Assembly: GCA_028873125.1 (NCBI GenBank)
Contig: JAGWMQ010000024.1
Span: 1-34,610, forward strand
Direction: 5' to 3'
Length of the DNA stretch: 34,610 nucleotides
From: Verrucomicrobiota bacterium
GTDB taxonomy: Bacteria; Verrucomicrobiota; Verrucomicrobiia; Limisphaerales; UBA11358
The position numbers and the translations under genes were made by a program. The notes beneath the pieces are model-generated. The model was given only the letters and a program-made list of their open reading frames with translations, was not told the DNA's origin and did not search any database. Position 1 is the stretch's first letter. Every line of letters begins with the position of its first letter. Shown here piece by piece: positions 29,349 through 33,809 of the stretch.

Positions 29349-30983
29349 TCAATAATCCATGTCGCCCATGCCGTGACCGCCCGGCATCGGAGCTTTCTCC
29401 TTCTTCTCCGGGATCTCGGTGATGAGGCACTCGGTCGTGAGCAACAAGCCGGCAATCGAAGCCGCGTTTTGCAGCGCGGTGCGCGTGACCTTCTTCGGGT
29501 CCACCACGCCGGCCTTCACCAGGTCCTCGTATTCGCCGGTGGCTACGTTGTAGCCCTCGTTGCCCTTGCGCTTCTTGACTTCCTCGACGACGACGGAGCC
29601 TTCCACGCCCGCGTTGTCGGCCAGGCCGCGCAATGGCGACTCGACGGCGCGCTTCACGATGTCCACGCCGATCTTTTCGTCCTCGTTCGCGCCTTTGACC
29701 GCTTCAATGGCGGGCAGGCAGCGCAGCAATGCCACGCCGCCGCCGGACACGATGCCTTCCTCGACGGCCGCGCGGGTCGCGTGCAGGGCGTCCTCGACGC
29801 GCGCCTTCTTCTCCTTCATCTCGGTCTCGGTCGCGGCGCCGACGTTGATGACGGCCACGCCGCCGGCGAGTTTGGCCAGGCGCTCCTGCAATTTCTCGCG
29901 GTCGTAATCGCTGGTGGTCTCCTCAATCTGCCGGCGGATTTGATTTACCCGGCCCTGGATGTCGGACGACTTGCCGTTGCCCTCGACAATCGTCGTGTTT
30001 TCCTTGTCCACGACGACGTTCTTGGCCCGGCCCAAGTCGTTCAACTCGACGTTTTCGAGCTTGATGCCGAGGTCTTCGCTGATGAATTTGCCGCCGGTGA
30101 GCACCGCGATGTCCTGCAGCATCTCCTTGCGGCGGTCGCCGAAGCCCGGCGCCTTGACGGCGCAGACGTTGATCGTGCCGCGCAGCTTGTTCACCACCAG
30201 GGTCGCGAGCGCCTCGCCCTCGACTTCCTCGGCGATGATCAGCAGCGGCTTGCCGAGCTTGGCCGTCTTTTCCAGGATCGGCAGCAAGTCCTTCAAGCTG
30301 CTGATTTTCTTTTCGTAAATGAGGATGTAAACCTCCTCGAGCTTGGCTTCCATCGTCTCGGCGTTGGTGACGAAGTAGGGGGACAGGTAGCCCTTGTCGA
30401 ACTGCATGCCTTCCACCACGTCGAGCGTCGTCTCGATGGACTTGGCCTCCTCGACGGTGATGGTGCCGTCCTTGCCGACCTTGTCCATCGCGTCGGCGAT
30501 CTTGTCGGCGATGTCGTAGTCCCAGTTCGCCGAGACCGCCGCGACCTGTTTGATTTCCTCCTTGTCCTTCACCTTCTTGGCGATTTTGTCGAGCTGGCCG
30601 ACCGCGGCTTCCACGGCCTTGCTGATGCCGCGCTGGATGCCGATGGGATTGGCGCCCGAGGTGACGAACTTCAGGCCCTCGCGATAAATCGCCTCGGCCA
30701 GAACCGTCGCCGTCGTCGTGCCGTCTCCCGCCGAGTCGCTGGTCTTGCTGGCGACTTCGCGGACCATCTGGGCGCCCATGTTTTCGTAGGGATCTTCCAG
30801 CTCGATCTCCTTGGCCACCGTCACGCCGTCCTTGGTGACGGTGGGGGAGCCGAATTTCTTGTCAATGACCACGTTGCGGCCCTTGGGTCCGAGCGTGGCG
30901 ACGACCGCTTTGGAAAGCTTGGCGACGCCGCGCAGGACCGCCTGCCGCGCCTGTTCGTCGAATACTAGTTGTTTTGCTGCCAT
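29349..30983 (-). CDS. groL: Chaperonin GroEL
   Basis: 544 aa. All GroEL landmarks are present: [31 protein letters not shown]-type N-terminus, [19 protein letters not shown] (ATP-binding, with the catalytic Asp in DGTTT), the apical-domain stretch [18 protein letters not shown], and [16 protein letters not shown]. The tail [12 protein letters not shown] is a Gly/Met tail that is shorter than the E. coli GGM repeat. It folds proteins in the cytoplasm as a double heptameric ring with GroES. The leader before the ATG contains a short heptamer-like run. Confidence 0.98.
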
Positions 30984-30996
30984 AATGTTTTCGTTC

Positions 30997-31024
30997 GTTG
31001 TTGGTTCAATGTTCAGTGTTAATC
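30997..31024. repeat. GTT-type heptamer run between groES and groEL
   Basis: Four units in 7-nt register: GTTGTTG (30997-31003), GTTCAAT (31004-31010), GTTCAGT (31011-31017) and GTTAATC (31018-31024). The run covers most of the 35-bp gap and the last codons of groES. It is shorter and less regular than the others, so it could be chance. Confidence 0.4.
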
Positions 31025-31312
31025 CAGGACTGCAAGCACGTCGTCGGAGGACAGGATCTTGAATTCCTTGCCGTCAATCTTGATTTCCGTGCCGCCGTAT
31101 TTGGAGACCAGCACGCGGTCGCCGACCTTGACCTCGAAGGGGACTTTCTTGCCGTTGTCGTCGGTCTTGCCGGTGCCGAGCGCGCGCACGATGCCTTCCT
31201 GTGGTTTTTCCTTGGCGGTATCGGGGATGATGATGCCGCCCTTTTTGACTTCCTTTTCTTCAGCCGGTTCGACGAGAAGTCGGTCGCCGATCGGTTTCAC
31301 GTTTAGTGCCAT
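31019..31312 (-). CDS. groS: Co-chaperonin GroES
   Basis: 97 aa from the ATG at 31312, the normal GroES length; the open frame before it is leader sequence. [13 protein letters not shown] opens the protein, [16 protein letters not shown] is the mobile loop that docks on GroEL, and [22 protein letters not shown] leads to the C-terminal strand [12 protein letters not shown]. It caps the GroEL ring. About 275 bp upstream lies a second copy of its leader and first codons. Cotranscription from the dnaK promoter is likely because I find no strong promoter in the gap. Confidence 0.96.
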
Positions 31313-31390
31313 AGTTGGTTGTTTCCTGTTTTGTTGTTTGGTTTCTCCGAATTTACTCCCGGTCCGCACCCGCGGCGGGAAAATTTACCG

Positions 31391-31532
31391 TGCGTTTCGG
31401 GGAGCGCACGCGTCTCGCGTGCCGTCCGGCGCGTCCCGCGACGGACGTTCGTGGTGCGCGCGAACGAGTCAAATTGTCGGTCGCTCAACTCCGTACGGCT
31501 GGCGCGCGGGACGCGCGCGCTCCCCAAACGCA
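31391..31532. repeat. 142-bp element with terminal inverted repeats (MITE/REP-like)
   Basis: The two ends are inverted copies. The left end reads TGCGTTTCGGGGAGCGC from 31391; the right end, read inward on the other strand from 31532, is TGCGTTTGGGGAGCGC. About 32 bp align with three mismatches and one single-base gap. An internal small hairpin GTTCG...CGAAC lies at 31447-31465. The element carries no protein gene, and I see no clear target-site duplication. It sits exactly where the partial groES copy ends. Its minus-strand reading (SARVPRASRTE and FARTTNVRRGTR) resembles repeat-derived segments I associate with verrucomicrobial hypothetical proteins, but this is from memory only. Confidence 0.7.
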
Positions 31533-31587
31533 AAACCACCGGCTCGACCAGGATGCGGTCGCCGATCGGTTTCATGTTTAGTGCCAT
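31533..31587 (-). pseudogene. Partial groES duplicate (first 18 codons)
   Basis: ATG at 31587 followed by ALNMKPIGDRILVEPVV, nearly identical to the intact GroES start ([15 protein letters not shown]) downstream. After the 18th codon the sequence enters the 142-bp inverted-repeat element. The upstream leader is also duplicated: both copies share CCGAATT and CGCGGCGGGAAAATTT at matching distances before the ATG. The frame stays open through the element for 94 codons and stops at 31303, seven bases into the real groES gene. A functional co-chaperonin cannot be made from it. Confidence 0.82.
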
Positions 31588-31688
31588 GACTTTTTGTTGT
31601 TCCGTTTTTCGCCGAATTGAATTCCCTCCGCGCTCGCGGCGGGAAAATTTCTCAGTTCCAGCGGGACGGGCAATCGCCCAAACAAAAC

Positions 31689-33623
<1,935 letters not shown>

Positions 33624-33660
33624 AAAAAATCTCTCGCTAAATCATTTGGAACAATCTCAA

Positions 33661-33677
33661 AGCAATGCCGGTGCCAA
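33661..33677 (-). promoter_or_regulatory. Sigma-54 (-24/-12) type promoter of dnaK
   Basis: The minus strand reads TTGGCACCGGCATTGCT. The sigma-54 consensus is YTGGCACG, four bases, TTGCW; only one position (C for G after GGCAC) differs, and the invariant GG (33675-33674) and GC (33663-33662) are the required 10 bp apart. Transcription would start near 33650, leaving a 27-nt leader with a good ribosome-binding site. Sigma-54 promoters need an ATP-driven activator bound upstream; a candidate site is described separately. Confidence 0.62.
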
Positions 33678-33784
33678 GCGCCATGAACCTGCAAAGTTCA
33701 TTGATAACCAATGCAAAATGCGCTTTGGGTGCCGATTCGCGCCAACCCAAATCTGCGCCAACACGTCACACGCGCTCGAAGAAT

Positions 33785-33809
33785 GGCACAGTTGCCCGGC
33801 ACAGTTGCC
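33785..33809. promoter_or_regulatory. Tandem 12-bp dyads upstream of dnaK (possible enhancer)
   Basis: GGCACAGTTGCC occurs twice, at 33785-33796 and 33798-33809, one base apart. Each copy has inverted ends GGCA and TGCC. They lie about 135 to 159 bp upstream of the predicted dnaK start site, the distance at which sigma-54 activators usually bind. They also lie 33 bp upstream of the forward promoter at 33842. Confidence 0.5.

Follow-up and report, generated by a model that had tools for sequence, protein, structure and literature searches.

How is dnaK switched on in a bacterium of the phylum Verrucomicrobiota? In most studied bacteria the gene is controlled by HrcA/CIRCE, by a heat-shock sigma factor or by HspR. 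The locus described here raises the question because a near-consensus sigma-54 element stands in front of its dnaK. The window, by which we mean the whole stretch of DNA analysed (34,610 nucleotides), takes up the whole of contig C50 in a draft genome of 3.74 Mb (G000) from a Limisphaerales-like member of the phylum. Among the matches listed in a comparison of DnaK, the nearest come from sequences titled Limisphaerales and Verrucomicrobia subdivision 3.

The gene under control, dnaK, lies on the minus strand at 31689..33623, with its ATG at 33623-33621. It was identified from the open reading frame list and its translation, which is an Hsp70 of 644 residues (Pfam HSP70, E 4.1e-267). Downstream of it and codirectional are groES (31019..31312, minus strand, 97 residues with its start; Pfam Cpn10, E 2.6e-33) and then groEL (29349..30983, minus strand, 544 residues; Pfam Cpn60_TCP1, E 1e-79). 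We infer that groES and groEL are cotranscribed with dnaK. The region between the genes also contains a second, broken copy of the start of groES (MALNMKPIGDR...), within 31290-31600 on the minus strand and 275 bp upstream of the intact gene, and the 5' flank of this copy is duplicated too. An inverted repeat of 33 nt (31396-31428 and 31496-31528, 82% complementary) starts roughly at the break.

The sigma-54 element before dnaK

The first-pass annotation of this DNA claimed a near-consensus sigma-54 element before dnaK, and the element is real. It reads TTGGCACCGGCATTGCT at 33677-33661 on the minus strand and leaves 37 bases between itself and the ATG. The GG at 33675-33674 and the GC at 33663-33662 are separated by 10 bases and sit in a TGGCAY...TTGC context, so that this predicted -24/-12 promoter element differs from the sigma-54 consensus, YTGGCACGNNNNTTGCW, by a single deviation. 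Transcription from such promoters usually begins about 12 bases downstream of the -12 GC and needs both RpoN and an ATPase activator. By this geometry the start would be expected at 33650 on the minus strand. The earlier proposal depended on rpoN, and the gene is there: this genome has one match (PF04552, E 4.6e-59, on contig C143), and RpoN is present in 39 of the 40 genomes made up of this one and 39 relatives.

Taken alone, a sigma-54-like element is not enriched above chance across the genome. TGGCAC-N5-TTGC matches without mismatch at 13 places in the 3.74 Mb, the dnaK element being one of the 13, and when one mismatch is allowed there are 250 matches versus 285 for the reversed-pattern control. 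The decisive test is therefore whether the element and its position before dnaK are conserved in relatives.

Conservation of the element in relatives

We fetched 110 dnaK loci (30 + 80), of which 107 had a located start and 104 remained after removing duplicates. The script did not locate the start in L027, L029 and L118; the duplicates were L070, L072 and L106. By title the loci represent Limisphaerales, Spartobacteria, Opitutae, Kiritimatiellae, Lentisphaerae and Methylacidimicrobium. They are mutually related, so the counts below are not counts of independent events.

Of the 104 distinct loci, 76 have the relaxed pattern GGCAY-N6-TGC within the 130 bp that precede dnaK. The same pattern is found on the opposite strand in 1/104, reversed in 1/104, in far-upstream windows in 6/744 and in coding windows in 0/824, and over 50 rounds of Markov shuffling it averaged 0.68/104 with a maximum of 3. 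A strict sigma-54 pattern precedes dnaK in 6/104 loci versus 0/744 control windows, and by a looser score 86/104 loci exceed at least 95% of their own shuffles. The composition of the element can be examined in the 103 loci that have the GG-N10-GC in the last 140 bp required by our selection. Among these, T precedes the final GC in 97, and the GGCA-type start is followed by C in 51 and by T in another 51, although the score gave no credit for T at this position. A median of 39 bases separates the end of the element from the ATG. The one locus without any GG-N10-GC in that interval is L079, an Opitutaceae-titled sequence whose DnaK is 81% identical to that of our bacterium.

The relaxed pattern is missing from 28/104 loci, many of them Spartobacteria/Chthoniobacterales or Opitutae, with Methylacidimicrobium (L113) also among them. 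Some GG-N10-GC is retained in the last 140 bp of 27 of these 28, which is weak evidence by itself. From these comparisons, the predicted sigma-54 promoter at dnaK is conserved in position before orthologous genes.

The upstream half-sites

Further upstream lies a putative enhancer. Two dyads had been described there, copies of GGCAACTGTGCC (GGCACAGTTGCC on the plus strand) at 33809-33798 and 33796-33785 on the minus strand, 13 bp from start to start. Both are present and both are part of an array, but the conserved unit is the half-site TGTGCCA/TGGCACA and not the GGCA-N4-TGCC dyad. Among the loci listed, what repeats upstream of the element in relatives is TGYGNCA / TGNCRCA. The first-pass annotation was nearly right about the enhancer: the GG-N10-GC element and the upstream sites, whose absence from close relatives would have refuted it, are kept, and the GGCA prefix of the dyads is not.

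In the window the array is on the minus strand throughout. The two dyads span its first two putative enhancer half-sites, TGTGCCG (33797..33803), whose last base is off consensus, and TGTGCCA (33784..33790), which lies 114 bases upstream of the -24 element and has the former as a tandem copy 13 bp upstream. Two more sites had been missed. TGTGACG (33770-33764) is a possible degenerate half-site, and TGGCGCA (33760-33754) is a putative half-site of opposite orientation, 84 bases upstream of the -24 element. Three bases lie between these two, which may be compared with TGTGCCA-N4-TGGCACA in L015.

Half-sites were counted in the 93 loci with full upstream DNA. Between -330 and -60 there are 2.95 per 270 bp; the reversed pattern gives 0.47, and the counts further upstream are 0.19 and 0.32. 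At least two are present in 77/93 loci, versus 9/93, 1/93 and 3/93 in three controls. Pooled over loci and measured from the -24 element, their density per kb, taken bin by bin (20 bp each) between -160 and -81, is 14, 43, 37 and 32. Elsewhere it is 1-2 per kb beyond -161, 5.4 between -80 and -61, 1.0 between -60 and -21, and 6.9 between -20 and -1. In NtrC-type enhancers, repeated sites for the activator lie some 80-200 bp ahead of the promoter, and in layout and position the predicted half-sites are what is expected of such an enhancer.

One common form in the genus is TGTGCCA-N12-TGGCACA. A search of the 40 genomes with the strict pattern TGTGNCA-N12-TGGCRCA gives 28 distinct sites in 22 genomes, and the reversed control gives 3 matches. 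Seventeen of the 28 precede dnaK, with 158-182 bases from site start to ATG (14 assigned by script and 3, in G001, G013 and G021, by coordinates); the other 11 are located away from dnaK. All 10 perfect TGTGCCA-N12-TGGCACA sites in the 40 genomes precede dnaK. Compared with its genus, the array in this window is irregular. It has 23 bases between TGTGCCA and TGGCGCA, not 12, and TGTGNCA-N11-13-TGNCNCA occurs at 3 places in this genome, none of them at dnaK, versus 5 for the control. Because of this irregularity, motif scans of this genome alone could not define the regulon. We also inspected 30 of its sigma-54-like sites, namely the 13 exact matches together with 17 of the 237 that have one mismatch. 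Only dnaK, with three, and one other site (L042) have at least two half-sites within 260 bp upstream. L042, at C176:21830, matches the sigma-54-like pattern exactly and has, about 110 bp upstream, two copies of TGGCACA separated by 8 bases; it is a possible second target of whatever factor would bind the half-sites.

Is sigma-54 the only sigma factor at dnaK?

Between the half-sites and the element lies an A/T-rich block, which in the genus often carries a CCTTTGTTT-like sequence. In the pooled loci the last 60 bp before the -24 element are 57-64% A/T, versus 41-47% further up; in this window the corresponding figures are 53% (33678-33737) and 42%. The block may bind a DNA-bending protein. It could also hold a -10-like site, in which case sigma-54 would serve an accessory promoter, used under some condition unrelated to heat, beside a housekeeping promoter of the sigma-70 type. 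There is a precedent for such an arrangement in C. trachomatis, where the available text of PMC7482065 and PMC8762339 describes tandem sigma-66/sigma-54 promoters before hrcA-grpE. We think it somewhat unlikely that dnaK is organized in this way here, but even if it were, the arrangement would be compatible with the activator proposed below.

A candidate activator and its kinase

A dedicated activator had been postulated in the first-pass annotation, plausibly correctly, and we can now name a candidate from a near-universal clade of NtrC-type regulators. This genome encodes 11 strong NtrC-type regulators; three weak PF00158 matches (E 1e-8 to 1e-4) were not counted as regulators. A tree was built by a quick method from 73 sequences of this and 13 further genomes, which were chosen partly for having few such regulators. 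Two sequences were left out, a fragment from G043 (L217) and the second regulator in L259 (G035), both less than 41% identical to our regulator and so no clear members. A single clade with support 100 is represented once, and only once, in 13 of the 14 genomes, G043 being the one that lacks it; the widest of the other clades seen in the tree reaches 8/14.

The clade member in this genome, at C103:14324-15679 on the minus strand, has a REC domain, an AAA+ sigma-54 activator domain and a Fis-type HTH. Of the 40 genomes, 37 have an orthologue with 67% identity or more, and the other regulators listed do not exceed 48%; G022 has an additional regulator fragment of 81% identity. The recognition-helix motif GxSRRT-x-[HY]R[KR], which was picked after seeing the members, is present in 12/13 members of the clade and in 0/60 other regulators.

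Directly before the regulator gene is that of a PAS histidine kinase (C103:15747-16991). The protein has about 36 residues followed by PAS, HisKA and HATPase domains, which leaves little room for a membrane sensor and so suggests a cytoplasmic signal. The kinase is found in 37/40 genomes, with one in-frame stop in G006, and all 25 of the good genomes have both kinase and regulator. The two genes are side by side in 34/37 genomes and on separate contigs in G004, G030 and G039. Neither was found in G014 and G016, which are 75% and 73% complete. G023 (84% complete) has no match to RpoN, the kinase or the orthologous regulator, yet its dnaK element and enhancer-like sites are present, and G043 has the dnaK element and no clade member. 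We considered whether the membrane protein gene behind the regulator is part of the system. Relatives of it occur in 4/12 neighbourhoods (L235, L236, L242, L244), and it was left out since the other neighbourhoods are without it. Three of the membrane proteins were scanned; one passes the Pfam PMT_2 cut-off, one falls below it and one has no family.

A search of the whole phylum at E 1e-50 matched the regulator in 193/193 genomes. Since other regulators within the order come as low as about 1e-112, we counted only matches with an exponent of at least 130 as likely orthologues; 162 of the 192 other genomes have one. The regulator is present in 16/16 distant neighbourhoods and the kinase in 9/16; in the remaining 7, including those of G084 and G105 (10 kb), the kinase was not found within the stretch fetched. 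G084 (L290) and G105 (L291) are single-contig genomes of 0.9 Mb, each with one strong NtrC-type match that keeps the SRRT helix.

Half-sites at the kinase-regulator operon

Kinase upstream regions came from loci of 30 of the 37 genomes, with 29 starts located. At least two half-sites lie within 260 bp before the kinase gene in 20/21 same-genus genomes, and the reversed pattern gives 0/21. The sites are also arranged alike: in 19/21 of these upstream regions TTGAC is followed 9-18 bases later by TGYGNCA, and in 18/21 there are direct half-site pairs 34-38 bp apart. Our own genome (L260) reads TGTGCCA...TTGACG...TGTGCCA. In other families of the order, 8/8 genomes have fewer than two half-sites before the kinase gene. 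Six further genomes were inspected by eye, with TGTGCCA in G044 and no array in G040, G041, G047 and G048. Among the 16 distant neighbourhoods, several of which have uncertain start points, only G069 has at least two (three).

Because the half-sites are common to the pair's own operon and to the sigma-54 target, and because the clade is near-universal, we name this clade as the candidate activator; the shared half-sites are evidence from one genus. A site shared by the promoter of a regulator and a sigma-54 target is what autoregulation would be expected to leave.

The same half-sites could belong to another factor, either a different NtrC-type activator or a repressor, which would act at a real sigma-54 promoter before dnaK and in this genus would control the kinase-regulator operon as well. 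There are 11 strong NtrC-type regulators in this genome to choose from. Outside the genus the kinase operon is mostly without half-sites while dnaK retains them, and 11 of the 28 strict sites in the 40 genomes are elsewhere than at dnaK. However, the named clade is the only near-universal one (13/14, against 8/14 for the next widest visible), and the place where the half-sites occur in 20/21 same-genus genomes is the usual place for autoregulation. We consider another factor improbable on these grounds.

The proposed circuit

We believe that the kinase and NtrC-type regulator pair activates dnaK, probably together with groESL, through sigma-54, and we would give this reading a probability of roughly 70% on the comparative evidence. 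A signal of misfolding stress, probably cytoplasmic, would reach the PAS kinase (C103:15747-16991), which would phosphorylate the regulator. The regulator (C103:14324-15679) would then assemble on the TGYGNCA/TGNCRCA half-sites 80-160 bp upstream and contact the sigma-54 polymerase across the spacer. ATP hydrolysis would produce the open complex, and dnaK, probably with groES-groEL behind it, would be transcribed by sigma-54 RNA polymerase from 33677-33661. In the genus, the half-sites at the head of the kinase-regulator operon would also give the regulator control over its own production. Binding by the regulator, activation, autoregulation and the stress signal are steps that we infer, and heat as the signal is the weakest of them. 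The original reading, in which RpoN and a dedicated activator drive the chaperone run, gains support from the presence of rpoN, the conservation of the element and the upstream sites, and the candidate activator.

The classical controls

It could be argued that dnaK is under HrcA/CIRCE, HspR/HAIR or sigma-32-type control here, as in most studied bacteria, and that the sigma-54 match is incidental. HrcA was detected in 7/14 control genomes but in 0/40 of the genome set (this one and its 39 relatives). The best match to CIRCE (TTAGCACTC-N9-GAGTGCTAA) in the 107 dnaK upstream regions has at least 5/18 mismatches. An absence of CIRCE before dnaK and groES had been noted from the start and is borne out, the best match in the window having 6/18 mismatches and the best around groES having 8. 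HAIR, the site of HspR, is CTTGAGT-N7-ACTCAAG, and its best matches near dnaK in the same 107 regions have at least 4/14 mismatches. Conservation of the sigma-54 element is, moreover, far above its controls. Given this conservation and the outcome for HrcA, CIRCE and HAIR, we regard classical control as very improbable for this locus. A chance resemblance, with both GG-N10-GC and the dyads coincidental, would fit the 250 versus 285 matches with at most one mismatch in this genome, but given the 76/104 loci versus 6/744 windows and the positional peak of the half-sites it is extremely improbable.

Comparison with known systems

The circuit we propose resembles NtrB-NtrC, in which a kinase and a REC-AAA+-Fis regulator act through upstream sites at the sigma-54 promoters of glnA / glnLG, including the regulator's own promoter. 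The likeness lies in the kinase, the architecture of the regulator and the upstream sites, again including its own promoter, although here binding is only predicted. The target and the half-site are different, and our regulator scores 410.5 with the NCBIfam NtrC model, below the cut-off of 558.6. The best NCBIfam matches are AtoS-AtoC, with 472.3 bits for our regulator to AtoC and 266.5 bits for a same-genus kinase (G013) to AtoS. These are far below the equivalog cut-offs of 714 and 646, so by the NCBIfam test the pair is not AtoS-AtoC.

The phylum of Chlamydia and the Verrucomicrobiota are grouped in the same superphylum. Compared by description, from the available parts of the chlamydial papers, the hrcA-grpE promoter is like ours in that a sigma-54 promoter heads a dnaK-linked operon and a kinase is joined with an NtrC-type regulator. 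There are also differences. HrcA/CIRCE is among the main heat controls of Chlamydia, where the sigma-66 promoter contains the sigma-54 site; here no HrcA was found in the 40 genomes, the regulator has a Fis-type HTH and the enhancer-like array is conserved. According to the same portions, C. trachomatis CtcC is without a DNA-binding domain, and on heat shock atoS/atoC transcripts go up and rpoN goes down (PMC8762339, PMC7482065). By analogy, the decrease of rpoN as given in the available text of PMC8762339 would count against the dnaK circuit we propose.

Chaperones have been connected with sigma-54 in other phyla. In Planctomycetota and Bacteroidota, the accessible part of PMC12316311 describes an enrichment of predicted sigma-54 promoters at the genes for DnaK, DnaJ, GrpE, GroES, GroEL and IbpA, and it calls grpE and groES of B. 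thetaiotaomicron and grpE of F. psychrophilum sigma-54-dependent. Classes of the Verrucomicrobiota are named in that part for motility, ABC transporters, nitrogen fixation and rpoN autoregulation, but for chaperones they are not. For the chaperones it gives no enhancer motif or activator. Among the titles and abstracts listed, none concerned sigma-54 control of dnaK in Verrucomicrobiota, which is no proof of absence from print.

What the circuit would mean

The work suggests an unusual control of chaperones in this bacterium and in most of the relatives examined. A much broader claim can be framed, which we put forward tentatively and on the whole think unlikely to hold in full. It is that the pair is phylum-wide and with sigma-54 runs the main chaperone of the Verrucomicrobiota, taking the role of HrcA or of a heat-shock sigma factor, that dnaK is its chief conserved target, that the regulator persists as the sole strong one of the NtrC type even in genomes of 0.9 Mb, and that CtcB-CtcC, the developmental switch of Chlamydia, descended from this proteostasis circuit and lost the DNA-binding domain.

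The more modest reading is important enough. It would place dnaK in many members of the phylum under a sigma-54 circuit driven by ATP and switched by a kinase. It may also offer the chlamydial sigma-54 switch an evolutionary context. With the promoter, the half-site and a candidate kinase-regulator pair all named, the way in which these bacteria may sense protein-folding stress becomes directly testable.
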